A stretch of DNA of 64,000 nucleotides from a bacterium (GTDB lineage: Bacteria; Zhuqueibacterota; QNDG01; JAFGCO01). A program made the translations under genes and the position numbers. This document shows, piece after piece, positions 34,921-49,865 of the stretch (position 1 is the stretch's first letter; the number at the start of each line of letters is the position of its first letter). The notes beneath the pieces are model-generated. The model had not been told where the DNA came from. It saw only the letters and a program-made list of their open reading frames with translations, and ran no database searches. The stretch is from assembly GCA_016932575.1 (NCBI GenBank), contig JAFGCO010000018.1, positions 34,590 through 98,589 on the forward strand, in the 5' to 3' direction.

Positions 34921-37900
34921 TCACTCCAATATCACCATCTTTTTCACTGATCTGAAATTCCCCATCTGAATTCTGTAAAAATAGATGCCGGGTGAGAATC
35001 CATTTGCATTGAACTGAACCTTATACATGCCAGGGTGATAATCTCTATCCACCAAATTGATCATTTCCTGTCCCATAATATTGTAAACTTTCAGTACAAC
35101 ACGGCATGGTTCCTTCACATCAAAGCGGATTGTTGTCTCAGGATTGAATGGATTGGGATAATTCTGAGTCAATTGAAAGCTTTGAATAAACGCTTCCTCC
35201 TGTTCATCCACATCAACAATAAGACCAGCAAACCGGACAGTGCCGAAAACACTAGGATTGCTCCCTGCCTTATCATCATCAGACCACCAGCGGCTCCAAA
35301 TATCCCGTCCACCGCCATCATTGTCGTTCAGCTGTATGTCAAAGCCCATCAGGTCACCGATGTCTGGTGTGATTCCAGGGTTGACACTCAAATCCCATTC
35401 GGCTTCCATGGTCCATCCAGACCCTGTCTGGGTAAAAGCCAAATTACTGGTGGGAGTGGTATTGTATACAGGATCAAACTCAGCATCATTGGCATCCGTG
35501 GATGTCGTTTTATCATTGTGACCGTCAATAAAAATCTGAATACCATCATTCATCCAGCAATCTGCATGGTCTGTACTGATCATGTCATCAAAGACATTCA
35601 CATAAAGGTAGAGCATGCTGCCCTCCCAGGTCAGTTTGTAGTTGAACCGGCAGTCGTTACAGTCATCCACAAAGGAAACCTCGAATGGCGGATTGAGAGC
35701 CGAGCCTCCGGAATGGGTCACAAAGGTATTGTCACTGAGCCAGGGAATATCATCCCAAACCATTTTTTCCGCCAAACCGTCAATCACAGGAGCCGTTGAT
35801 GTCCGAAGGATATTCGTCGGATATGCGGCCACATAATCTGTAGTACGGGCTGTGCCAAAGAGACTCGGATTGTGCCATGAATGATCACTTTCAGACCACC
35901 ACTTTAAAAGATGATCTCGGCCTCCGCTGTCATTATCATTGAACTGGATGTCAAATCCGAATGTCTGATCTGGAGTCAGATTGAATGTCATATCCTGAGC
36001 AGGAATACGAACTTCGAAATTGTATCCATTGTCCGAATTCTTGAACATGCAATCTGAATTGGGCGCACTGTCGAGATTATCAGACGTCTGGCCATGGATG
36101 TATCGTAATTGTGTGTCATTGTCATCATACCCTGTAGACAGATCGTTTTTACTGTTGTCGCCGTCAAAAAAGATCTCAAATGAATCATTTTCCCAGGCAA
36201 GTGAATTGGATGTATTGATAACATCATCATAAGCCTGAATGAAGAGATAATAGTAATCGCTATCATACATCATTTTAAAACTGGCAAAATTGTCCAACCA
36301 GTCATCTGGAGCAACTTCATCTGTGACATTCTGTTTTTCCATGAGCACGGAACAGACACTGTACCAAACAGGATCCATCTGTCCATCAATCACAGGAGCT
36401 ATCCCGGCCATGGGTACTTCCAGTATGACATCAGTTTCTTCTCCGCCTCCTCCATCCTTAATCAAGAAGGGTTCATTGCTTAAATCATAGGGATTCCCGT
36501 CAGAAGCATCTTCTATTTTAATCAAGCATTGATCACTTGCTGTATTGGGAACGGTCCAGGAATAGGATCCTGTATTCTCTATAATAGATGCAATCGGGGG
36601 GACCACCCAGTGACTGCCGCCGTCTGTCGAATACCGTATTGTCACCTGATCAATTTTGTAAGCCGAAGTACTCCAAAAGGAACTCCATGTAATATCTTGG
36701 CTCGAACCAGGTGTCCACTCCTCTCCACCGTTGGGACTTTCAATCGTGATCGATACCAAGAGTAAATTGCCTTTCACTTCATCAGTATTTGAATACGCTG
36801 AATTCCCGTACTCATTAAAGGCGAACACCCGAAAATAAAAAGTCTGATTTAATGAAGCGGGGGCATCGGTCTGATAAGAAGTCACATCGGAGTTTAATGT
36901 ATCAATGGTATGCCAATAATTTTCACTGATAATGCAAGGCAAATACTTTTTTTGTATGACAAAACCATCCTCATCATCAGAATTATCCTCCCACGTCAAA
37001 TGTACCTGGCCCGGGAGCAAATGCGCCTCTAAATCTGACGGAGAAGCAGGCACCAATGGACTGGAGCAAATAGTAAACGGATGATTGCTAAGATCATAGG
37101 GAAGACCATCGGAAGCATCTTCGATCTTAATCAGGCATTCCGTTGAAGGAACGTCCGACACAATCCACGAATAGGAACCCGTATTGGCAATATCACTGGC
37201 AATGGGTGACTCAAGCCAGTTGCTTCCCGCATCTGTTGAAAGCAGTATATTGACTTTGGACGGTGGATGCATAGTAGAGTTTGTCCAAGTGATTTCCCGG
37301 TTACTTCCAATGTTCCAAATTTCATCGCCATTGGGCGAGGTGATCTTGAGATACGTAAGTGATATACCCGTTGATATTGATGTTTGATCCGAATAGTCTG
37401 AATTCCCGAATTCATTAAATGCATAAACCCGAAAATAATAAGTAAAATTTCCTCCTGGATCATCAATCTGATAGGACGTTCTGTTCTCCATCAATGTATC
37501 AACAACTTCCCACACAATAGGAAACGCTCCTGGAGTCACTTTTTTTTCAAGAACAAAGCCATCTTCATCATCGGAGTGATCTTCCCATGTCACATGAATT
37601 TGCTCAGGAATAGAATGGGCGGCCAGATTGGTGGGCACTGCAGGTATATTAATCGGACATATGACAGCAAACTGTGAAAGATGATTTGTCTCACCACAGA
37701 TGATATTCGCATCTGTATCCAACGATATTATTGGAATTTCCTCCCACTCACCGGGAGGAACCTTATAATACATGAATTTTAATTCTGCTTCCTGTGCAGG
37801 CGAAAGTCCGGTATCGTCATAATGAACACAGATTGTTATATTTCCGGAATAGGTAGCGGTCGTTTCTATATCGTAATAAACAGGATTATCCAAAGGCAGA

Positions 37901-39438
37901 ATTGCATAGCTATTCGGAGGAACAATATTGCAGTCAGATGCAGTCGCTGTTGTATTTCCTGATTCGGTTATTTCATCAAATCCAACTGTAACTCCATTGC
38001 CGGCATCTACTTCAACATCTGTCCCCTCATATGTATTTGGTTTTATATTTCCAAGAATTAATCTATCGAGATGGTTTGTTTCAAAATCAGTACTTACATA
38101 TAATTCTTCTATTCCAATCTCATCGGAGAACTTATATCTCCAGTCCTCGTATTCATCCTCTGGCCAGTGCCAGGAAACTCCTTCTATAGGATTCGTCTGA
38201 TACCGATTTTGATAAGCTTCAACGCAGATAACACCAGCATTGTTCGAAAGAGCCGGTCTAACTGTATACGTATTGTGCACATCAACACTCAACGAAGAAA
38301 TCCTTTTATATGTCCAGCTCGCCGAATTATTCCATTCCCATCCAGAGGCTAACATGTCGATAAAATGAATTACGAATCGGCCCCGATCCTCATCAAGCTG
38401 ACCATGGCAAACACCCCCGGTCCCCACTTGGTACATAAAGTCGTATCGATTATCATACGGATAAGCTGTCGGCAACCACCTTGCCATACCGGTAAGAGTA
38501 CGAAAAACCACTTGCGTATCATAAGTACCGTCTCCATCCAGATCATAATAAAGAGAACTGAAGTGATCAGGACATACCCATTGCCCTTCTCCATAGAGAA
38601 AATGATCAACCACATCCAATCGTCCCAAATATCTCACAGATCGAACCATGATAATGGAATTATCAGTAAGTATACCTGTACCTCTAGCATAATGAATGTC
38701 TGCCCATTTTACTGACGTGCTATATGTATCATAGTAAGCATATTTTCCCAATGCCTTGTTAAAACCAATACATGGAACCCAGTGATCTCCTTCACGGTCC
38801 ATATTTGTATCAATCGTTAAAAAAATGGGGACGCCTTCAGAAAGCTTATCATGGATAAAGTCGCAAAAATCATCAGAATTGATATTCAATCTGCCCATAT
38901 TATCATAATGCCAAAAATAACCATCATTGATCCAGGCGTCTCCATAACTGCCATACTCATTAAGCCAATCTGCATAATCAGCAGTCGGATCCGTATACTT
39001 CTCAGCACAATGAATTGTAACTTTGATCCTGTATTTTTGGTTAAAAGCATAACCTTCCAATCCTGTTTTTATACTATCCTGACGTCCGAATCCGCTGTCC
39101 CTTGTATTCATATATTGTTCTCGGCCTAATATTTGTGCCGTAAATAATCCCTCATCCTCTTCACCTTCGGGATCCATTAATAATCCATATTGGGGAACCA
39201 GATGATTAACATGATCAAAATACGCCATTATCATTGCACCTGTTGTTGGTCCGCATCCAATAAAAGCACCATTCACTTTATATTGTTCAGTATTGTACGG
39301 GTAAGCTGGAAAATCCTCAAAATCTTTAATAAAGACCTCTTGTGCATATAAACCCGAATAAATAGATCCTGTTAAAAGACTGATCAGTAAACACATGATT
39401 CCAATATTAATCCGTTTTTGTCTATTTAGATTTTTCAT
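34921..39438 (-). CDS. Giant secreted C39-like peptidase with CBM9-like and T9SS domains
   Basis: 1505 residues. Signal peptide to about residue 32. Residues about 35-270 form a C39-like peptidase: Cys62 in AFIGCGPTTGAMIMAYFDH, His in EGDHWVPCIGFN (about 216) and YYDTYS. Next come FnIII domains (VPTNLAAHSIPEQIHVTWED), alternating with Ser/Thr-rich GPI-anchored-type domains (ITSPNGDEIWNIGSNREITW), and two CBM9-like domains (APVIDGQMDPVW and APVIDGLAEKMVW). The C-terminus has NYPNPFNPETTIRFDV and GIYFYRIQMGN, the T9SS sorting domain. The RBS is GGGAGGG. Probably exported to the surface; target unknown. A paralogue lies upstream in the same direction. Confidence 0.88.
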   Translation of the reverse strand: MKNLNRQKRINIGIMCLLISLLTGSIYSGLYAQEVFIKDFEDFPAYPYNTEQYKVNGAFIGCGPTTGAMIMAYFDHVNHLVPQYGLLMDPEGEEDEGLFTAQILGREQYMNTRDSGFGRQDSIKTGLEGYAFNQKYRIKVTIHCAEKYTDPTADYADWLNEYGSYGDAWINDGYFWHYDNMGRLNINSDDFCDFIHDKLSEGVPIFLTIDTNMDREGDHWVPCIGFNKALGKYAYYDTYSTSVKWADIHYARGTGILTDNSIIMVRSVRYLGRLDVVDHFLYGEGQWVCPDHFSSLYYDLDGDGTYDTQVVFRTLTGMARWLPTAYPYDNRYDFMYQVGTGGVCHGQLDEDRGRFVIHFIDMLASGWEWNNSASWTYKRISSLSVDVHNTYTVRPALSNNAGVICVEAYQNRYQTNPIEGVSWHWPEDEYEDWRYKFSDEIGIEELYVSTDFETNHLDRLILGNIKPNTYEGTDVEVDAGNGVTVGFDEITESGNTTATASDCNIVPPNSYAILPLDNPVYYDIETTATYSGNITICVHYDDTGLSPAQEAELKFMYYKVPPGEWEEIPIISLDTDANIICGETNHLSQFAVICPINIPAVPTNLAAHSIPEQIHVTWEDHSDDEDGFVLEKKVTPGAFPIVWEVVDTLMENRTSYQIDDPGGNFTYYFRVYAFNEFGNSDYSDQTSISTGISLTYLKITSPNGDEIWNIGSNREITWTNSTMHPPSKVNILLSTDAGSNWLESPIASDIANTGSYSWIVSDVPSTECLIKIEDASDGLPYDLSNHPFTICSSPLVPASPSDLEAHLLPGQVHLTWEDNSDDEDGFVIQKKYLPCIISENYWHTIDTLNSDVTSYQTDAPASLNQTFYFRVFAFNEYGNSAYSNTDEVKGNLLLVSITIESPNGGEEWTPGSSQDITWSSFWSTSAYKIDQVTIRYSTDGGSHWVVPPIASIIENTGSYSWTVPNTASDQCLIKIEDASDGNPYDLSNEPFLIKDGGGGEETDVILEVPMAGIAPVIDGQMDPVWYSVCSVLMEKQNVTDEVAPDDWLDNFASFKMMYDSDYYYLFIQAYDDVINTSNSLAWENDSFEIFFDGDNSKNDLSTGYDDNDTQLRYIHGQTSDNLDSAPNSDCMFKNSDNGYNFEVRIPAQDMTFNLTPDQTFGFDIQFNDNDSGGRDHLLKWWSESDHSWHNPSLFGTARTTDYVAAYPTNILRTSTAPVIDGLAEKMVWDDIPWLSDNTFVTHSGGSALNPPFEVSFVDDCNDCRFNYKLTWEGSMLYLYVNVFDDMISTDHADCWMNDGIQIFIDGHNDKTTSTDANDAEFDPVYNTTPTSNLAFTQTGSGWTMEAEWDLSVNPGITPDIGDLMGFDIQLNDNDGGGRDIWSRWWSDDDKAGSNPSVFGTVRFAGLIVDVDEQEEAFIQSFQLTQNYPNPFNPETTIRFDVKEPCRVVLKVYNIMGQEMINLVDRDYHPGMYKVQFNANGFSPGIYFYRIQMGNFRSVKKMVILE

Positions 39439-39550
39439 TATTATGCCCTCCCAATTATTTCATTTATCAAAAGTTACATATCATCTCTTTAAATTAAAAA
39501 CTGTCTTGACTTGAATCACATATGAGCCGGGAGTTTCCACCAGATTATTT

Positions 39551-39583
39551 GACCTTGCGAAGGTCGATGACCTTCGCAAGGTC
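39551..39583. repeat. Perfect hairpin with 15-bp arms
   Basis: GACCTTGCGAAGGTC and GACCTTCGCAAGGTC flank the trinucleotide GAT. Each arm is itself nearly palindromic (GACCTT/AAGGTC). It sits between the two C39 genes. No T-run follows in either direction, so it looks more like a REP-type element than a terminator. Confidence 0.7.
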
Positions 39584-39607
39584 TTCCATTGTTCAGAAAA
39601 ATGTGAG

Positions 39608-42600
39608 TCATTTCATGAAAATCATCTTTCTAACTTGAATCCACTTTTTATCGGAACCATCATCAGGATGAGCAACAATCCGGTAAAAATACATCCCTGA
39701 AGCCATGAGCCGTCCGTTCTGATGGATTCCTGCCCAGTGGGCTGTATGTATACCGGCTGACATCGTTTTCCTGAATAAACAATACACCTCCCGGCCTGTC
39801 ATATCATATATTGTGAGGATAACTTCCGCTTGTTTCGGCAAATGAAATTCGATGGCCGTCTCCGGATTAAACGGATTGGGGTAATTCTGGTTCAGTGAAA
39901 ATTTTTCAGGTATGGTAGAAATTGGAATATTTTCAATGCCTGTCCCGATTTCAGCAGTCAATTCTGTTAATACGCCATATCCATCCGAACGATACACGGT
40001 ACTGGATTCATTTTCAAAACAAGCACGGGCAGCATATTCTGTTTCTTCGCTATTGTCCCATATCCTGAAACGAAGCGTATCATTCTCCAAAAACCCATCA
40101 ATTGTGTCTGCTGTCTGTGTATTGTCTCCCCAAATTGTAATGGCGGCATTCTCTCCATTCCAGACGATTGCTCCGCAGCACAAACCTGCAGAGTTGAACA
40201 CACCGATCTCATCCCCGGATTCCAGCAAAGTGCCATCCCCGCATTTCGGTTCAATGGCAGTCGGAACCACGACTGTGCAATTCTGACCTGTATTGTCAGT
40301 AAACTGAAAATGTTGCATGTCCTTCATACCATCAGATTCTGAAATATACCTGGAGGCAATACCGGCCTTGGGCAGCCCGCCGCTTCCGTCTGGATAAACA
40401 AGTGTGGCTTCATTCCTGACATACAATTTATATCCTTTTCCCGGTTCCATGTCACCAATAGTATTGATGCCAAAAGACGGAATATAGGTTTTACCCTCTT
40501 CATTTTTGGCAATCACCAGCGCATCACTGATACTTGTCAGTGCCTGGGCGGCATCCATGGGAGTCTCTGGCAAATAACCGACCATACTCCATCCGCTTTC
40601 AAGATTAATAGGGGTCGACGGGTCAATGCACTGTCCCCTGACCACCAGATCCGAGGCCTCATTTAAATACCCTTTGTATCCCTTTCGATAATCCATATCA
40701 CCAATATTATTAATACCATAAGCCGGAACATAAGTATTTCCATCACCGTCCTTGATAATCACTATTTTTTCTTTAATATCACGCATCACCGAGTCAATAT
40801 GGGAATACACCGGATCAATGTTAAAGGAAAACATGTTCCATCCTTCTTCAAGCGTGACTGTCCGTTCACTGATATCTGCAGCATCAAACTGACTTAATAC
40901 AATGAATGCATCTGCTGCATAGGTTCCCGCCCCCTGAGAATAAGCAACCGTCACGGTATTCCATGATTTTGCTTCACTGAGACGATACACTCTGTAGCTG
41001 ATGATCTCTCCAGGCTGGAATCCATCAATTTCGTTCGTCTGAGAGTCATCTCCCCACACTGTCAGGGAAAGGTTTGTTTCCTGCCACTGTGCATATCCGC
41101 AGCACAGCCCGGCTGGAGTAAAGGCGCCAATATAGTCACCGTTTAACAGTGAATTTCCATCAATATTTGGATTCGCCTCTGCAGGTAAAACCACGGTTGC
41201 GTTATTCCCTGTTTCAGTATAACTCCACTCTTCAGGCAAGTTCCCCTGTTCCTTTGTAACCGATACGGTCACTTCCTGATTTCCGGCATTTGAAGTGATT
41301 TTTAACAATCCTGTGTCGCTGTCGCCGATTAATTGACTGCGGTCTATTTGAACACTTATCGTGGCATCTCCATTCCCGGCGGATGGATCGATATCAGCCA
41401 TCCAGAGCTTATCAGGAGTCTCTGCCACATCCCAGCTCAGGGTGCCCCCGCCAGTATTCGATATTTGAAAATTTAATTCATTCAAAGAAGATCCGAATTC
41501 CAGATGATCAGGCTGAACAGAAAGGACCGGTGTCACTGGCTCGCCGATTCTGAATGGTTCATTACTCAAATCATATGGGCTTCCGTCAGAAGCATCTTCA
41601 ATTTTAATCAGGCACTGATCACATTCAATATTTGGAACAGTCCAGGCATAGGAACCCGTATTTTCTATATTCGATGCAATGGGAGGATCCACCCAGTGAC
41701 TTCCGCCGTCTGTTGAATACCGTATCGTCACCTCGTGAATTTGATATGCAATAATACTGCTGAATGAACTCCAGGTAATATCATGCGTGGAACCCGAAGC
41801 CCACTCTTCTCCTCCATTGGGGCTTTTCAGTGTGATAGATACCAGGAATAATCCCCCTCTTACCGTATCAGGATTTGAATAAGCCGAATTGCCATACTCA
41901 TTGAATGCAAGCACCCGAAAATAAAAAGTCTGATTAAATATCGAGGGCACGCCTGTCTGATAAGAGGTTGTATTTGCATCCAGAGTATCAATTTTACTCC
42001 AGACAGACGGAAAACCCGGAGACATTTTCCTTTCAATAATAAATCCGGTTTCATTATCGGAATGATCTTCCCAGGTCAGGTGAACCTGTTCCGGAATCAA
42101 ACGCGCCACCAGATTGGTCGGTACTGCAGGCAGGTTTTCATCCATTTCGTAACCTACAGTACGAACCATCACAATACTGTTGTCATGAAGCGGACCGATG
42201 GCATTCACATAATGAATGTCTGCCCACTGAAGCGTCTGACTGTAGGTATCATAATAAGCATATTTCTCAGAACTTCTGTCATACCCTACCATGGGAACCC
42301 AGTGATCTCCCCCCTGATCCATATCGGTGTCAATGGTTAAAAAAAGCGGAATATTCAAAGCAAACACCGAATCAGCAAAATCGCAGAATTTTTCCACATC
42401 GATTTCCCAGTCTCCGCCCGGATTTTCCTGCCAGAAAGCGCCGTCATTGATCCAGGCATCTCCATAATCCCCGTAGTTATTCCATGAATAATCTCCGCCG
42501 GGTACATAGATAGGTGACACATGGATCATCACTTCCAGGGCATAGCCCCGGGCTTCTGCATACCCCTCCAGACCGGGTTTTATATCATAGGGAGAACCGA

Positions 42601-44329
42601 ATCCGTCGCTGTTGGTCTTCATATATTCGTTTCCATGCAAAGCCCAGGCTGTATTCAGACCTTCATCCGCTCCCTGATCCGGATCGGTCAATAATCCGTC
42701 GGGAGCAGAAAGATTATAGATATGATCGAAATAACCCAGGATCATTGCTCCGGATGTGGGCCCGCATCCGACAAATGCACCGCCCTGTTTGTAATCTGAA
42801 GTATTATAAGGATAGGCCGGAAATAAATCAAACTCATCGATATAGGTACCATAATCTTCAGTTGTCACATTGTCTTGATTGGAATAAGTCGAAGCCCCTG
42901 TATTATTAAAAGCAAATACTCTGTATGAATAAGACGTATTGATCTGCACATCTTTGTCGCTGTAGGATTCCTGATCTGCCAAAGTGGTGTGAATTGTCTG
43001 GTAAGTCCCGGAAGATCCTGCTTTGCGTTCAATTTTGAAACCGGTTTCGTTGTCAGAATTGTCATCCCAGGCAAGATCAATCTGTGTGCTTGTCACCACA
43101 GTTGCAACCAGATTGGACGGCGGAGGCGGAGCAACATCTGATTCACCTCCACACGAAAAAACGGCTTGTGCTGAAAATGTCCCTGTCTCTTCAAAAGTTC
43201 CGGTAAGCGGCATATCGCAGGATATGCCTGTAAAAGTGATTTCAACAGCCGCTCCTTCATAGGTACTGCCATAGGGCGAGCCTGAAGCGCCAATATCAAG
43301 ATCCACACCGACTGAAACCACTTTGCCCGATGAAAAATTGGTAAAATCAACTTCAAGAATCTTATCGCTTATTTTTCTGACATCACTCACCTCAGGAGAA
43401 TGTGGAACTGCCATGCTGCCCAAATAATCAATAGTCACATTGGTACCCGTAAAATCTATTCTGGCCCCTGTCAACCGGTGATACTGCGTAAAATACGAAT
43501 CGTATGAAAAATCCAATCCGTTTCCGCCCTCACCAACCATATAGGCTAAAACAGTCCCGGACAAACCCGCCCCGGCGCTTCCGGAAATGGCAGTGACATT
43601 GTCAATGTTGATTTCCCGCATAGAACCAGTGATGTCCGGATCACCGAAAACCCGGACGCGGACACGATTGATCGTATAATTTGACAGATTGACAAAATGA
43701 TCTGCGTCAATATGATTCCAACCGTTGGTTAAAGAATGGAATACGCCCTGTCCGGATACATATTCTTGAAGCCATACTTCCTGGGCATCAGATTTCCGGG
43801 TGGCATTGATCAAAATTTGAGCAGAGCATTCTCCTGAATGAAACCCGGCAGCATGAATGTTCAGCGAAATACCTGTCAGATCCTGCCATTGCTGATTTGA
43901 AGTGACATCCGGCGAAACAATATCAATTAACCAGTAAGAAGCCCCGGAAGAAAAATTTGAGGGCAAAGTAAAGTTCGAAGCATAAACCGATGCAGATCCC
44001 ATACTATTCCCTGCAGGATCATTACCCGATGAACCGGGATACTGTGTGGCATCATCCCAAGTCAATGTAAAAGGATTGTTATAAACCGTGGGGTAGGTAT
44101 TGTATGCATATATTCCCTGCATCGTCCAGCCCTGAAGCGTCCCATTATCAAAATCAAAAATTTGAGAAAAACTTAAGGACGTGATAAGAAATAACAAACA
44201 AACTAAGATGCGTACAACTGAAATTTTTCTTTTCGAAAGATCCTGGTAAGACAACATGCTTTTCCCCCTCGATGTTTGTAAATTTTGAAGATTAATTCTT
44301 GTCTTTTGAAAATCAGCAATCCCTTTCAT
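39608..44329 (-). CDS. Giant secreted C39-like peptidase, second paralogue, with T9SS domain
   Basis: 1573 residues. A long N-terminus precedes the hydrophobic signal VRILVCLLFLITSLSFSQ. Residues about 58-255 form a jelly-roll-like region (DNGTLQGW), then a cohesin-like stretch and FnIII (PSNLVATVVTSTQIDLAWDD). The C39-like domain is at about 495-735 (AFVGCGPTSGAMILGYFDH, GGDHWVPMVGYD). More FnIII, a Ser/Thr-rich domain, a BACON-like domain (FQISNTGGGTLSWDVAETPD), repeated beta domains and the T9SS tail (NYPNPFNPETAIEFHLP) follow. Two starts have good RBSs: 44329 (GGAGGGG) and 44257 (GAGGGGG); the second gives a normal signal peptide length. Confidence 0.88.
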   Translation of the reverse strand: MKGIADFQKTRINLQNLQTSRGKSMLSYQDLSKRKISVVRILVCLLFLITSLSFSQIFDFDNGTLQGWTMQGIYAYNTYPTVYNNPFTLTWDDATQYPGSSGNDPAGNSMGSASVYASNFTLPSNFSSGASYWLIDIVSPDVTSNQQWQDLTGISLNIHAAGFHSGECSAQILINATRKSDAQEVWLQEYVSGQGVFHSLTNGWNHIDADHFVNLSNYTINRVRVRVFGDPDITGSMREINIDNVTAISGSAGAGLSGTVLAYMVGEGGNGLDFSYDSYFTQYHRLTGARIDFTGTNVTIDYLGSMAVPHSPEVSDVRKISDKILEVDFTNFSSGKVVSVGVDLDIGASGSPYGSTYEGAAVEITFTGISCDMPLTGTFEETGTFSAQAVFSCGGESDVAPPPPSNLVATVVTSTQIDLAWDDNSDNETGFKIERKAGSSGTYQTIHTTLADQESYSDKDVQINTSYSYRVFAFNNTGASTYSNQDNVTTEDYGTYIDEFDLFPAYPYNTSDYKQGGAFVGCGPTSGAMILGYFDHIYNLSAPDGLLTDPDQGADEGLNTAWALHGNEYMKTNSDGFGSPYDIKPGLEGYAEARGYALEVMIHVSPIYVPGGDYSWNNYGDYGDAWINDGAFWQENPGGDWEIDVEKFCDFADSVFALNIPLFLTIDTDMDQGGDHWVPMVGYDRSSEKYAYYDTYSQTLQWADIHYVNAIGPLHDNSIVMVRTVGYEMDENLPAVPTNLVARLIPEQVHLTWEDHSDNETGFIIERKMSPGFPSVWSKIDTLDANTTSYQTGVPSIFNQTFYFRVLAFNEYGNSAYSNPDTVRGGLFLVSITLKSPNGGEEWASGSTHDITWSSFSSIIAYQIHEVTIRYSTDGGSHWVDPPIASNIENTGSYAWTVPNIECDQCLIKIEDASDGSPYDLSNEPFRIGEPVTPVLSVQPDHLEFGSSLNELNFQISNTGGGTLSWDVAETPDKLWMADIDPSAGNGDATISVQIDRSQLIGDSDTGLLKITSNAGNQEVTVSVTKEQGNLPEEWSYTETGNNATVVLPAEANPNIDGNSLLNGDYIGAFTPAGLCCGYAQWQETNLSLTVWGDDSQTNEIDGFQPGEIISYRVYRLSEAKSWNTVTVAYSQGAGTYAADAFIVLSQFDAADISERTVTLEEGWNMFSFNIDPVYSHIDSVMRDIKEKIVIIKDGDGNTYVPAYGINNIGDMDYRKGYKGYLNEASDLVVRGQCIDPSTPINLESGWSMVGYLPETPMDAAQALTSISDALVIAKNEEGKTYIPSFGINTIGDMEPGKGYKLYVRNEATLVYPDGSGGLPKAGIASRYISESDGMKDMQHFQFTDNTGQNCTVVVPTAIEPKCGDGTLLESGDEIGVFNSAGLCCGAIVWNGENAAITIWGDNTQTADTIDGFLENDTLRFRIWDNSEETEYAARACFENESSTVYRSDGYGVLTELTAEIGTGIENIPISTIPEKFSLNQNYPNPFNPETAIEFHLPKQAEVILTIYDMTGREVYCLFRKTMSAGIHTAHWAGIHQNGRLMASGMYFYRIVAHPDDGSDKKWIQVRKMIFMK

Positions 44330-44397
44330 GGCATCCCCTCCTGCCTTTAATTAAATATTGAATCTGAAATGCAGAATCTACTTATATGTCGTTTTCA

Positions 44398-44426
44398 ATT
44401 GTACCATATTTTGATAAAAAATTCAA
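44398..44426 (-). promoter_or_regulatory. Sigma70-like promoter for the C39 gene
   Basis: On the minus strand TTGAAT (44421-44426) and TACAAT (44398-44403) are spaced 17 bp apart. They lie about 70 bp upstream of the first possible start at 44329. The match is good by eye. Confidence 0.6.
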
Positions 44427-44455
44427 TTTTTTAAATAACGATTTCGAAAAAATGC

Positions 44456-44484
44456 TTGATTTTAAACCGGATTGGATTTACATT
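44456..44484 (+). promoter_or_regulatory. Possible promoter for the sigma-factor gene
   Basis: TTGATT (44456-44461) and TACATT (44479-44484) are spaced 17 bp apart, 66 bp before the ATG of the sigma gene. It is divergent from the C39 promoter about 30 bp away. The match is moderate. Confidence 0.4.
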
Positions 44485-44550
44485 CTGGCATTAAACAACA
44501 TGTTTTCCAAAGATTTATAATCCGGTTAAAATACAAAAGCAGCGTTTCCC

Positions 44551-45165
44551 ATGAAATCTCAATATATAACCGACTATAAGTTAATTCAGTCTTATCTTAA
44601 AAACAATCTGAAAACTCAGAAACTCCTTTATGACGAAACAAAACGGTTAATCGCAGGACTGATCAAACGGCTGGAATCCCGCGGGACGACTTTTTATGAC
44701 CGGGATAACGTGGTTGCAGAGGTTCTGTACCAAATTATGGTTGCCGATAACAAAAAAGTGCTTCGTAATTACAATGGGCAAAGCCGATTGACCACATATT
44801 TATGGCCTGTTATTCGTAATAAAATCATAGATGTAATCCGTAAGGAGCGCAGTCATTATAATCATCACAGATATCAGGAAGAGGCCATCCAAATAAACAT
44901 GGAAACATCCGGTTCGAGAGGAAACCTTGGCGTCGATATCGCTGAGTATATCGCCCACGAGTCCCCTCTGAAACAGTTCATTAAAATATCCAAATGGATT
45001 GAAAATCTGAGTTATCAGGAAATCATCAATAAGGCTTTAAAAACATTCCCGGATGGAAAGTCATTAACACATCAGCAAATCGCCTATATATTGCATTCAA
45101 ACCGAAAACATTTGCAAAAAAAATTCAAAAAATCGAACGTCTCAAACCGACATATAGGTAAATGA
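44551..45165 (+). CDS. ECF-like RNA polymerase sigma factor
   Basis: 204 residues. Region 2 is recognisable: DRDNVVAEVLYQIMVADNK then SRLTTYLWPVIRNKIIDVIR, which contacts the -10 element and core polymerase. Region 4 is weak: LSYQEIINKALKTFPDGKSLTHQQIAYIL, then RKHLQKKFKK, with a helix-turn-helix character but without the usual LP-R-VF start. A 45-bp gap separates it from the anti-sigma gene. It is divergent from the C39 genes, which may be targets. Sigma identity is fairly sure, the subfamily is not. Confidence 0.78.
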   Translation: MKSQYITDYKLIQSYLKNNLKTQKLLYDETKRLIAGLIKRLESRGTTFYDRDNVVAEVLYQIMVADNKKVLRNYNGQSRLTTYLWPVIRNKIIDVIRKERSHYNHHRYQEEAIQINMETSGSRGNLGVDIAEYIAHESPLKQFIKISKWIENLSYQEIINKALKTFPDGKSLTHQQIAYILHSNRKHLQKKFKKSNVSNRHIGK

Positions 45166-45210
45166 TATGATTCATCGAGTGTCTGGTGTTCTCATCATAA
45201 GGATAAAATT

Positions 45211-46152
45211 ATGCAGCCCTCATCTTGTAAACAAATAGAAGCCCTCTTTAGTTATTCCATTGATGGAGAGCCCATTCCTGAACATGAACATCGTGCTTTT
45301 CAAATCCATATAGAAACGTGTAAAGACTGTCAGCAACGCCTTGCCGGATTTCGCCAAACGGACACCTCTATCAGGAAAGCATTGAACGAATCGATCCGTA
45401 ATCATATATCAACCGATCTGTTGGATGCTTTTCTCAACAATCAAATCTACTCTGAATTAAAAAAAATACAGATTACAAGGCATCTTGATTCATGTACCCA
45501 ATGCATGGAAATATATCAGCGACTCATAGATCTTGATAAACAAAATCTGTTTTTTTCTTATCGCCTTCGTGCTTTGTTGCTTCGAATACAATTGTTGGAA
45601 AAATGGAAGGCCCTGTGGAAAAATTTTTCAAAAAAACCGCTGGCAGTGCGTGTTTTAGCGCCGGTCATGGCTTCTGTTATCCTCTTTATCTCCAGTTATT
45701 CATTCATCAAGGAAATAAGCGGACCTGTCTCTCTTCCTCAACTTGCTGACACAGAGCCCTATCCCTATATTGAAATGGGTCTGAGGAGGTCCGATCATCC
45801 AGCAGGCGATGCTGTCTGGCTCCAGGCCATGGATTATTATCAACATGGGGATTATCATGAGGCTATTTTTCTGCTTCGTGATTTGATTCAAGAACACCCC
45901 GAAAATCATCAGGCGCGCTTTTTTCTGGGCGTCAGTCATTATCTCGCCGGTCAGCCTGATAAAGCCGCTTATTACCTGAATACAGCCGTTCAACATCACC
46001 CGAATGATTCTAAGGCCTGCTGGTATCTGGCTCAGGTCTATCTGAAGCAGAATGACAAAGGACATTCACGTGATATGTTGGAAAAAACAGTCAGCCTGGG
46101 TCAGGAACCTTTTTTAACCAAAGCACGACGGTTATTAAAAAAGATGAAATAA
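45211..46152 (+). CDS. Transmembrane anti-sigma factor with two zinc fingers and periplasmic TPRs
   Basis: 313 residues. Zinc motifs are HIETCKDC (His33, Cys37, Cys40) and HLDSCTQC (His91, Cys95, Cys98). One hydrophobic segment (about 148-166, LAPVMASVILFISSY) crosses the membrane. Residues about 200-310 hold TPR units (AVWLQAMDYYQHGDYHEAIF and ARFFLGVSHYLAGQPDKAAY). The cytoplasmic zinc fingers probably hold the sigma factor encoded just upstream, and the periplasmic TPRs may sense or bind a protein partner. The RBS is AAGGA. Its last 52 bp overlap the convergent CHAT gene. Confidence 0.85.
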   Translation: MQPSSCKQIEALFSYSIDGEPIPEHEHRAFQIHIETCKDCQQRLAGFRQTDTSIRKALNESIRNHISTDLLDAFLNNQIYSELKKIQITRHLDSCTQCMEIYQRLIDLDKQNLFFSYRLRALLLRIQLLEKWKALWKNFSKKPLAVRVLAPVMASVILFISSYSFIKEISGPVSLPQLADTEPYPYIEMGLRRSDHPAGDAVWLQAMDYYQHGDYHEAIFLLRDLIQEHPENHQARFFLGVSHYLAGQPDKAAYYLNTAVQHHPNDSKACWYLAQVYLKQNDKGHSRDMLEKTVSLGQEPFLTKARRLLKKMK

Positions 46153-49100
46153 CAGATTAGAGACGACAAAATCACACCCGAACCAAAAAACCAGAACCAA
46201 AGAAAAGAATACCCGGTTTCAGAAGCATGTGTGGGTTGTGCGTCTCCAACCAGAATAAAAGGGGCCCAAAAAAACGGATGGGCATATGAGATTTGAACAC
46301 CACCCATATTGCCGGTTGTTTTTATTAAATTAATTTTTGCCTGCCGAAGCGCCTCAGCTTTTGATTTTCCTTGTTCCAGGTAATGATAAAAATTCGTCAT
46401 CAGTTGCGCAGTAGAAACATCGGAAACGTTCCATAAACTGACCACAACAGAATGCGCCCCGGCCGAAAGAAAAGCGTGTGTCAAACCGATAACACCTTCA
46501 CCTTGTTTCAATGCGCCCAATCCGGTATTGCACGCACTCAGCGTGACGAGGTCTGCTTTCAATTTCATATTGACTATTTCAAACACCTGTAAATATCCGT
46601 CTTCTGCAGAATCTGCATCCATGGCGAGCACGAGTCCGGAATAGAGAGGCTGTCGTTCATCCAGAATGCCGTGAGTGGAAAAATGAAGAACCCTGTAATC
46701 CCCGGCTGTCTCCTTGATCGTTTCCTCCTTGGCATCAATGCCAATCAGCATATGCACCTCTTTAAACGACCCGCTGATCTGCTCGATTTCGTAGGTTGAA
46801 AAAGGTAGTGGCCGAAATGACCTTCCTTCTTGTCTTGTAGCGAAAGTCAGGGGATTATTTAATCCCCGAAACGCCATGCCAATGGCCAGCAGGTTGTCCC
46901 CTTCAAATGCTTCATGCAATTGAAAAAAGCGGGGATCAAGAAGACTTGCGGAACAAGCATATGAAATGGGATAATTCTCTATGAGATAAGTTGAATGTTC
47001 ATAGTTTGAATACCATTTGGATACAGATTCGTCAGTTTTACTTCGGGGATCAACAACGAGCACTTCGAATGGAAGATAGAAAAGTGCATCATCAGGGATA
47101 ATAAGCAGCTCATCTCCCTTATTAAGATAAGGTTCAATGGGTTTGACAAGCTGACAATAGAGTTCATGCGCTTTATCAATATCAAACATAATCGCCAGCG
47201 GATCTTCAATCTCGATCAATGGCCGACGTATCTCCTCAACGGCAGATTGAATATCCGATTCTGTCAAAGCAATATCCGCCATTGCAATATGCCGATCCCG
47301 TACAATAAAGGCATAACTGTGGTTCATTCCAATGGCATATTCTATAAGAACACGGCCGGGTGTTGCAATACGATCGCAGATTTTCTGAACAGTAAGGGGC
47401 TGTATTTGTGACAAGCCGGGCAACTCCTTCCAGCGGCAGCGATCTACCTTTTCCTGAATCTTTTCAAATTTATTTTTTGCAGCTGATAATGATTTTTCAA
47501 GGCTGTCCAATGATGAAATCCGGGATTCTTGTTGAAATATGGCGGCATACAGCCTGGATTGAAGTGTATAAAGGTTTTGCTCGGCTTTACTATACTCTTC
47601 CATCAGTTTCAAAGGAATATTTTGGTCCAGACTTGTTTTGTTAAGATAAAAGAGATCAAGCAGGATTCTTGATTTGGACTGTTCAGCGAAGCGAAATGCC
47701 ACTTCGATATAATTCTCCTGGGGATCCCTCCGATTAAGTTCGGCCAGAATATGAATTAATTCATCATAGAGCCGGGTTTTTTCTTCAAAATACAAGACGC
47801 GTAATTCCTGTCCGGCAATGCCGCCCCGAATCTGCTCGATGTGATCAATGGCCTTTCTGTAATAAGCTTGAGCAGTCATTAAACTGTCAAGCTCCTGATA
47901 AAGCCGGCCCAACTCCCGGCAGGCGCGAATCATCTGGGGAATATCCTTGAGACGCTCTGTGATTTTCAGTGCGCGGAGACTTGCTTTTTTTGATTGATCA
48001 AAGGCCTTCTGTTTGCGATTAAGCCGGCCTATATTTAAAAGGATATCAGGAATTCTGCGGGCATTTTGAGATCGTTCTGCCAGAAGCAGGCTTAGGGTCA
48101 GTTGTGATTCCGCTTCCCTGAATCGTCCAAGCTCTTGATAAATGTAACCCAATTGGCTCCGAATCTGAATTTCATTTGGCACCAGTCCCAGATTACATGA
48201 CAATTGAAGCCCCTCATTCAGGCAAATGAGTGCACTGTCCGTTTGACCGACAGAATAATAGATATGGCTGATATTGAATAACAGATTCACTTCACGCTCT
48301 CCTGCATTTAAAAGCCGGGCCAGTATCAGGGCCTGATGCAAGTACTGTTTTGCCGCCTTCAAGTCTCCCAATTTCTGGTAACAGACTCCCACATTCTCCA
48401 GATATCGGATTTCGGCCTGTTTTTCACCAACTTCTCTGGAAAGCTTAAGTGCTTTTTCATAATATTCAAGACCTTTTGAATAATGCCCGGATGCATTCTC
48501 AATCATGGCCATATTGCCCAGCACATGGGCCACAAACAACTGATTCCCGGATTGATGATGCAATTTAAGCGCCAGTTGATAACAAATCCTTGATGAATCC
48601 ATACGGCCGATCTCATAGAATATTCGGCCCATCGTATTCATATTACGGGCCTGTTCATCAATATTATCAATCCGCCTGGCAAATTGAAATGCTTGTCGAA
48701 AACAATCCAGTGCTTTAAAAATGTTCCCCTTGTTTTGCTCAATAAGGCCTAAAAATCGATTACAATATGCCGCAAATCGAAGATCATCGGTCTGTTCACT
48801 CAATTCAGCGGCCGGGATTAAATAGGTCAATGCCGAATCATACATGGTTTGGTTAAAATAGACCCAGCCAATCTGTAACAAACAAGCTGAATATTGAGCT
48901 GTATCTTTTTCAATTTCCAGGAATGATTTACATTCACTTAAGGATTTCAGCGCTTCATCATATTGCCCGAGCCTGTTTTGAATCATGGCCACATTAAGCT
49001 GTATGACAAATTGATGTTTGATAAAACCGATTTGTTTGTACAGCCTGGCGGCAAGAGTATAATGGGTTAATGCTTCTCTGATGTCCCCCATCTCAGACTT

Positions 49101-49865
49101 TAAATTTCCAAGCATGTTCAATAACCGGCCTTCTTCTTCCTTCCATTCTTTCTTCCGGATGAGCTTAAGCGTATACAGGCAGAGTGATTCACACGTTTTA
49201 AACTCGCCCTTTTGAAACAGGGCCTGCGTTTTCTCGATTTTTGCATATATAAAAGAATCATCAGGTGGATAAACGCGATCAAAATAAAAAACAGCCTCAG
49301 TATATTTTTTATCGGCGGTTTTCAGATAACCCAATGCAAAATTCAGCGTCAGATTTAATGAGTCAGCAGACATGCTTTTCTGCAAATAGAGACGGCAATC
49401 AGACAATTGGTTGCTTTTTTGACAGCAATCCACCAGCGATCTGTAAATAAGATGATGCCGTCTTCCATGTTCCAGGGCATTCTTAAAAAACTCAATCGCT
49501 TTCGGATAGTCTTGTTTATTCTGATAGAAAACACCCAATCCATATAATGCACCCACGGCCCTGGATGTGTCGCTGATCATGCCTTCCAGATAATGACAGA
49601 CATCATCAGGACACTCCATTTTCTCATGCAGGATGACAATTAAGCTGAATGCTTCAAGAAAATCAGGTTTTTTCTGGATAAGTGTCCTGATAATTTGAGC
49701 GGAATCGTTAAACCGCTGTTCGCCCATCAGGTTCAGCGCATGGTTGTAGGTCTGTCTGATCCCGGTGTCATCGTAACTTATATCCTGTGAAAAAATCATA
49801 GCCGCATTCCAGAGGAAAAACAGAAGAATCATGCACAGAAATTGTGAATCGCGACGATGTGCCAT
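46101..49865 (-). CDS. Exported TPR-CHAT protease
   Basis: 1254 residues. A signal-like N-terminus (LCMILLFFLWNAAMIFSQ) is followed by many TPRs (about 35-720), with LYGLGVFYQNKQDYPKAIEF and similar units. The CHAT caspase-like domain is C-terminal: His in VLHFSTHGILDERQP (about 1058) and Cys in LVTLSACNTGLGALKQGEG (about 1112), with AFLSAGAHSVVVSLW after it. A final hydrophobic helix (WFWFFGSGVILSSLICYFIFF) and a basic tail suggest membrane anchoring. CHAT-TPR proteins are proteases or protease relatives. The orientation predicts the catalytic domain in the periplasm. It is convergent with and overlaps the anti-sigma gene. Confidence 0.87.
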   Translation of the reverse strand: MAHRRDSQFLCMILLFFLWNAAMIFSQDISYDDTGIRQTYNHALNLMGEQRFNDSAQIIRTLIQKKPDFLEAFSLIVILHEKMECPDDVCHYLEGMISDTSRAVGALYGLGVFYQNKQDYPKAIEFFKNALEHGRRHHLIYRSLVDCCQKSNQLSDCRLYLQKSMSADSLNLTLNFALGYLKTADKKYTEAVFYFDRVYPPDDSFIYAKIEKTQALFQKGEFKTCESLCLYTLKLIRKKEWKEEEGRLLNMLGNLKSEMGDIREALTHYTLAARLYKQIGFIKHQFVIQLNVAMIQNRLGQYDEALKSLSECKSFLEIEKDTAQYSACLLQIGWVYFNQTMYDSALTYLIPAAELSEQTDDLRFAAYCNRFLGLIEQNKGNIFKALDCFRQAFQFARRIDNIDEQARNMNTMGRIFYEIGRMDSSRICYQLALKLHHQSGNQLFVAHVLGNMAMIENASGHYSKGLEYYEKALKLSREVGEKQAEIRYLENVGVCYQKLGDLKAAKQYLHQALILARLLNAGEREVNLLFNISHIYYSVGQTDSALICLNEGLQLSCNLGLVPNEIQIRSQLGYIYQELGRFREAESQLTLSLLLAERSQNARRIPDILLNIGRLNRKQKAFDQSKKASLRALKITERLKDIPQMIRACRELGRLYQELDSLMTAQAYYRKAIDHIEQIRGGIAGQELRVLYFEEKTRLYDELIHILAELNRRDPQENYIEVAFRFAEQSKSRILLDLFYLNKTSLDQNIPLKLMEEYSKAEQNLYTLQSRLYAAIFQQESRISSLDSLEKSLSAAKNKFEKIQEKVDRCRWKELPGLSQIQPLTVQKICDRIATPGRVLIEYAIGMNHSYAFIVRDRHIAMADIALTESDIQSAVEEIRRPLIEIEDPLAIMFDIDKAHELYCQLVKPIEPYLNKGDELLIIPDDALFYLPFEVLVVDPRSKTDESVSKWYSNYEHSTYLIENYPISYACSASLLDPRFFQLHEAFEGDNLLAIGMAFRGLNNPLTFATRQEGRSFRPLPFSTYEIEQISGSFKEVHMLIGIDAKEETIKETAGDYRVLHFSTHGILDERQPLYSGLVLAMDADSAEDGYLQVFEIVNMKLKADLVTLSACNTGLGALKQGEGVIGLTHAFLSAGAHSVVVSLWNVSDVSTAQLMTNFYHYLEQGKSKAEALRQAKINLIKTTGNMGGVQISYAHPFFWAPFILVGDAQPTHASETGYSFLWFWFFGSGVILSSLICYFIFFNNRRALVKKGS

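Follow-up and report, generated by a model that had tools for sequence, protein, structure and literature searches.

Three adjacent genes make up the locus described here, which lies within the window (the whole stretch of DNA analyzed, 64,000 nucleotides): those for an ECF-like sigma factor, a transmembrane anti-sigma factor and a TPR-CHAT protein (Table 1). The sigma factor matches Sigma70 region 2 above the cut-off (PF04542), scores 37.8 bits against TIGR02937 (cut-off 42.9) and has no Pfam match for region 4. After a gap of 45 bp follows the gene for the anti-sigma, which has the full set of features of a zf-HC2 transmembrane anti-sigma: an N-terminal zf-HC2 domain, a single transmembrane helix (at about residues 144 to 162) and a gene downstream of that of the sigma factor. 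Its C-terminal TPRs occupy residues 202 to 300. The anti-sigma and CHAT reading frames meet tail to tail with an overlap of 52 bp. Besides its CHAT domain, the third protein contains numerous TPRs (profile search), and a C-terminal transmembrane helix at 1224 to 1242 is followed by the basic sequence RRALVKKGS. The reading frames and domains of all three genes agree with a preliminary description of this DNA, as does the C-terminal helix of the CHAT protein, found at residue 1224. The signal peptide claimed there fared less evenly: the hydrophobic stretch after RR at the N terminus is called as a signal by an n/h-region test, but a stricter test that also requires a cleavage motif makes no call. 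A second copy of the arrangement, consisting of a sigma gene, an anti-sigma gene and two convergent CHAT genes, lies on contig C29 of the same genome, which has five CHAT-bearing and at least 18 sigma70-type genes in total. An Rfam search of 34 to 54 kb gave 0 matches, and PADLOC returned weak matches only.

Table 1. Features of the sigma/anti-sigma/CHAT locus and its neighbors (positions in the window)
Feature	Position	Strand	Evidence or remark
T9SS-tailed surface protein, C39-like domain; paralog of the next	34921..39438	-	Profile matches
T9SS-tailed surface protein, fn3 and C39-like domain	39608..44329	-	Profile matches; divergent from sigma
ECF-like sigma factor, 204 aa	44551..45165	+	PF04542, 25.2 bits (cut-off 24)
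Transmembrane anti-sigma, 313 aa	45211..46152	+	N-terminal zf-HC2, 30.4 bits (cut-off 22.2)
Arg192-Arg193 then Ser in TM-TPR linker, candidate cleavage site	45784..45789	+	Arg recurs here in most CHAT-linked anti-sigmas
TPR-CHAT protein, 1254 aa	46101..49865	-	PF12770, 236 bits (cut-off 24), residues 898-1208

Neighboring surface proteins

The preliminary description had also reported two T9SS-type C39 proteins beside the sigma gene and had suggested that the sigma factor may control them. The T9SS-tailed proteins are real, but their C39-like domain scores 19.8 bits against Peptidase_C39_2, under the cut-off of 24, with GCGPT and HWVP motifs present. We find no support for the proposed control by the sigma factor: the C39 domain occurs in only 1 other of 59 genomes (G039), where sigma and CHAT genes are absent from the 14 kb examined, and a low-power search for a bipartite motif common to the upstream regions found none beyond those in shuffled sequence. 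T9SS genes in general were likewise rejected as a regulon, as one lies within four genes of 12/45 CHAT-linked sigmas and of 8/45 other sigmas, with no clear enrichment. Membership of the C39-like surface proteins in the module is not supported. A strong inverted repeat (GACCTTGCGAAGGTCATCGACCTTCGCAAGGTC, minus strand) lies within positions 39439 to 39607, upstream of the first C39-like gene.

The CHAT domain

The catalytic dyad is present in the window CHAT (His1065/Cys1112) and is almost invariant in its homologs, with His conserved in 37/38 and Cys in 38/38 of the sigma-linked CHATs. An AF2 model of residues 660 to 1215 (pLDDT 88), used for a fold search, matched Csx29 (Z about 30, rmsd 3), separase (Z = 28) and gingipain R (Z = 21); against DdvA of Myxococcus xanthus it gave a Z of 22 over 351 residues, with both His and Cys retained in the alignment. 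Structure match and intact dyad bear out the likeness to CHAT proteases first drawn from the letters, and the window CHAT is a peptidase-like domain and a predicted protease. In Arg-specific members of clan CD, acidic residues stand after β1 and where the helix following β5 begins (PMC4626109). Compared by sequence position, Asp925 and Asp1149 of the window protein correspond to these and are conserved in 33/38 and 36/38 linked CHATs, respectively; because unlinked CHATs conserve them too, they are compatible with Arg specificity rather than diagnostic of it. Nor does the fold fix the specificity of the CHAT, since the bond cut by Csx29 lies beside a Met and not an Arg (PMC10028731).

Topology of the partners

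Most linked anti-sigmas have one transmembrane helix and, beyond it, an external sensor domain of the TPR or Ig-like type, while some loci encode a short soluble protein directly after the sigma factor and a TM-TPR protein as the next gene. Among linked CHATs with a readable N terminus, nearly all begin with a signal or lipoprotein sequence; several of these N termini were judged by eye, as the open reading frame began too far upstream. Transmembrane anti-sigmas pair with exported CHATs, and in three loci (L204 to L206) an anti-sigma without a transmembrane helix accompanies a CHAT without a signal. These matching topologies suggest that the two proteins share a compartment, and they support the prediction that the window CHAT is exported to the compartment of the anti-sigma sensor domain. 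Export as such is not a mark of sigma-linked CHATs and was rejected in that role: roughly half of the CHATs sampled lack a sigma gene in their vicinity, and most of these are exported too.

Linkage within the phylum and beyond

Linkage was assessed in 80 CHAT regions from related genomes together with the loci of the window's own genome, 87 CHAT genes in all, in which sigma, anti-sigma and CHAT genes were mapped with custom-built profiles. An ECF sigma gene lay within 3.5 kb of 43/87 CHAT genes, against 2.5 (strict) to 4.5 (liberal) expected from sigma density. With loci taken as independent, the binomial p is < 1e-30, a value that is too small because some loci come from related species, although the effect is still large. 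The anti-sigma stood on the CHAT side of the sigma factor in 37/43 linked loci (p = 8e-7), and the CHAT gene was convergent in 13 of the 43. By comparison, none of the 36 ECF sigma genes recognized in a control set of 40 regions, at places picked by a Sigma70_r2 search, had a CHAT beside it. In the reverse direction, 14 of the best 16 TPR-type anti-sigma profile matches from 60 genomes adjoin a CHAT, and sigma and CHAT distances are correlated (Mantel r = 0.30, P = 0.002). Sigma, anti-sigma and CHAT are a conserved unit, and the association that the preliminary description had noted at one locus recurs in related genomes and in other phyla.

A scan of a genome collection with the CHAT alignment yielded 80 loci with 99 CHAT genes, 32 of which had a sigma gene within 3.5 kb. 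Linked trios occur in records titled Bacteroidetes, Acidobacteria, Aminicenantes, Chloroflexi, Eisenbacteria, Planctomycetota and Calditrichaceae; the anti-sigma of the KSB1 record L131 is the same as that of L260, from a genome of the window's phylum, a match that points to the KSB1 group as the likely home of the window. A record titled Actinomycetota (L133) has the same sigma/anti-sigma/CHAT module as L258 (genome G062 of the window's phylum), and its title probably reflects a mislabelled metagenome bin. Two gene orders are found, either collinear (sigma, anti-sigma, CHAT) or with a convergent CHAT. The tree of linked CHATs has nine switches between them, at least three forced by well-supported branches, and linkage itself is clustered on the CHAT tree (25 changes; 0/500 shuffles that low). 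That the three genes are kept together despite rearrangement suggests selection for joint function.

Several other loci were observed along the way. On contig C32 of the window's genome (L008:2465-4012, about 22.5-24.0 kb), a further sigma/TPR anti-sigma pair with the linker MR|SS faces a CHAT gene about 7 kb off, with T9SS-tailed genes in between. L243 and L244 (genomes G057 and G035) encode TPR anti-sigma-like proteins with the linker YRER|ST, and no sigma gene was recognized in the flanks examined. On contig C6 of the window's genome (L010:7239-15398), an exported protein of 2,719 aa combines PD40 beta-propeller repeats, TPRs and two CHAT domains, with no neighboring sigma gene seen; similar frames with CHAT, of about 2,590-2,850 aa, occur in some 25 other genomes of the phylum.

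A candidate cut site in the anti-sigma linker

In the linker that joins the membrane helix to the sensor domain, Arg plus a small residue forms a recurrent pattern, first spotted in one set of anti-sigmas, recorded and then checked on new loci. In 34 TPR-type linkers counted by eye, 30 have Arg, two have Lys (L054, L173) and two have neither (L058, L180); the residue after the Arg is Gly or Ser in 24/30. In an automatic alignment, Arg was the best-scoring linker column (28 rows; maximum 24 in 60 realigned linker shuffles), and an unaligned dipeptide test, a weak one confined to a single test segment, gave 27/28 against 17 by shuffling. The residue is also found in Ig-type anti-sigmas (SR|S, VR|T, QR|S, TR|S, LR|S) and in soluble ones (VR|G, VR|R, TR|T). 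An AF2 model of the window anti-sigma places the site in a stretch (residues 179 to 196) outside any secondary structure, with the first TPR helix at 197 to 211 (pLDDT about 61-66 in the linker, model mean 72). The closest ortholog (L265) has Arg-Pro at the site, a poor scissile bond. The case for an Arg specific to CHAT partners is weakened by five TPR-type anti-sigmas without a CHAT within about 5 kb that keep the Arg-small pair (L008, L211, L217, L261, L263); its presence there means that its role may be structural or connected with a different protease. Judged from these sequences, the linker Arg characterizes this type of anti-sigma, and we infer from it a candidate site at which the CHAT could cut.

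Comparison with known systems

The preliminary description knew of no such system, but in the DdvA protein of M. xanthus (PDB 8rot) an anti-sigma and a TPR-CHAT part are joined in one chain. A CHAT together with a sigma/anti-sigma pair is already known twice over, from Craspase and from DdvA, the latter judged on its structure title and our alignment. The Craspase/CASP system of type III-E CRISPR (Csx29, Csx30 and CASP-sigma) shares the TPR-CHAT fold (Z = 30) and co-encodes an ECF-type sigma and an inhibitor, with proteolysis proposed to free the sigma: cleavage of Csx30 by Csx29 would relieve inhibition of CASP-sigma (PMC10028731). In contrast, the window module is without Cas7-11, crRNA and Csx30, its inhibitor is a zf-HC2 membrane anti-sigma, and its CHAT is predicted to be exported, while that of Craspase is cytoplasmic and RNA-triggered. 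Membership in type III-E CRISPR was rejected on equivalog cut-offs (27 vs 300 bits for Csx29; 24.1 vs 100 for CASP-sigma). Closer in design is the DdvS-DdvA pair (PDB 8rot, 8rw5), likewise an ECF sigma and a membrane anti-sigma with a TPR-CHAT-like part. There, anti-sigma and CHAT form one polypeptide, whereas here each is encoded by its own gene, with a small TPR domain belonging to the anti-sigma itself; anti-sigma/CHAT fusions numbered 0 among the sampled loci. Separase and gingipain R, Arg-specific members of clan CD, share the fold, and Asp925 and Asp1149 correspond by sequence position to the acids of Arg-specific members. A literature search for the trio with a separate, exported CHAT over many phyla found none, although mentions of the gene neighborhood may exist. 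What appears to be new is the separate, exported CHAT partner of an anti-sigma, a widespread variant of the Craspase/DdvA kind.

Proposed mechanism and alternatives

We propose that the three proteins form an envelope signaling switch composed of a sigma factor, a membrane anti-sigma and a separate, exported TPR-CHAT protease. The zinc-finger part of the anti-sigma would hold the ECF-like sigma at the membrane, which the anti-sigma would span once, with its TPR domain (Ig-like in some relatives) outside. The protease would be exported and, in this genome, anchored via its C-terminal helix, with its TPRs the likely sensor of the signal. Once activated, the CHAT could cut the anti-sigma in the linker that separates its sensor domain from the membrane, with the bond after the conserved Arg as the most probable site; a site-2 protease would then remove the stump and set the sigma free. 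An M50 site-2 protease is encoded in the genome (G000:C18:92801-93811, 218 bits), and its role in the switch is a prediction. RseA/DegS/RseP of Escherichia coli likewise comprises a membrane anti-sigma cut outside the cytoplasm and then within the membrane, as we propose here, but DegS is a PDZ serine protease, whereas the putative site-1 enzyme of the window is a clan CD cysteine protease. The model draws on gene content, linkage in several phyla, the intact dyad, the matching topology of the partners and the fold; from these we infer the cutting, its site, the signal and the release, and we put the chances that the CHAT acts as site-1 protease of the anti-sigma and frees the sigma at a little better than even.

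The CHAT could instead be an output of the switch, expressed under the sigma factor and acting on other envelope proteins. The last place in a sigma operon is a common spot for regulon genes, and it is there, in a collinear operon with sigma and anti-sigma, that many relatives have their CHAT; many exported CHATs also have no nearby sigma. We nevertheless think an output role unlikely, given that the convergent CHATs (13/43) stand outside the sigma operon, that CHAT topology tracks that of the anti-sigma, and that both the DdvA fusion and the Csx29-Csx30 pair argue for direct contact. In a further alternative, the TPRs of the CHAT might bind the sensor domain of the anti-sigma and control its state, with the CHAT acting as sensor or co-inhibitor. 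The TPRs on both proteins in the same compartment, their union in a single chain in DdvA and a linker Arg that is not CHAT-specific would all fit such a non-proteolytic partner, which we nonetheless hold to be rather unlikely: His and Cys persist in 37 and 38 of the 38 linked CHATs, respectively, and linkage to CHAT extends to anti-sigmas that lack TPRs, both Ig-type and soluble.

Another site-1 protease might also cut at the linker Arg, with the CHAT directed at a different target in the same stress response, as the several anti-sigmas that keep the Arg with no CHAT within about 5 kb could indicate. However, CHAT genes lie elsewhere in most genomes of the phylum and could act in trans, and the strong linkage of sigma and CHAT would be left unexplained, which makes this reading very improbable. 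That the genes are chance neighbors in a genome rich in both (five CHAT-bearing and at least 18 sigma70-type genes) is hardly credible beside the binomial p of < 1e-30, the occurrence in other phyla and a linkage retained through changes of gene order.

Proteolytic release of the sigma through the CHAT, our preferred reading, can be tested directly, as cultured hosts exist (Spongiivirga citrea, Splendidivirga corallicola, Agaribacillus aureus). The trio may be a widespread gene switch that works by cutting an inhibitor outside the cytoplasm. More broadly, and with somewhat less than even confidence, we suggest that it could represent a multi-phylum class of envelope signaling in which an exported, Arg-specific protease resembling separase and Csx29 serves as dedicated site-1 protease of membrane anti-sigmas, with Craspase and the fused DdvA as specialized offshoots. 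To our knowledge, caspase-like CHAT proteases are common in bacteria, but partners are known for few of them. Pairing with a conserved anti-sigma would assign a function to many of them and, if the model is true, would bring a new class of site-1 protease into sigma-factor signaling and provide a plausible ancestry for the Craspase pathway.
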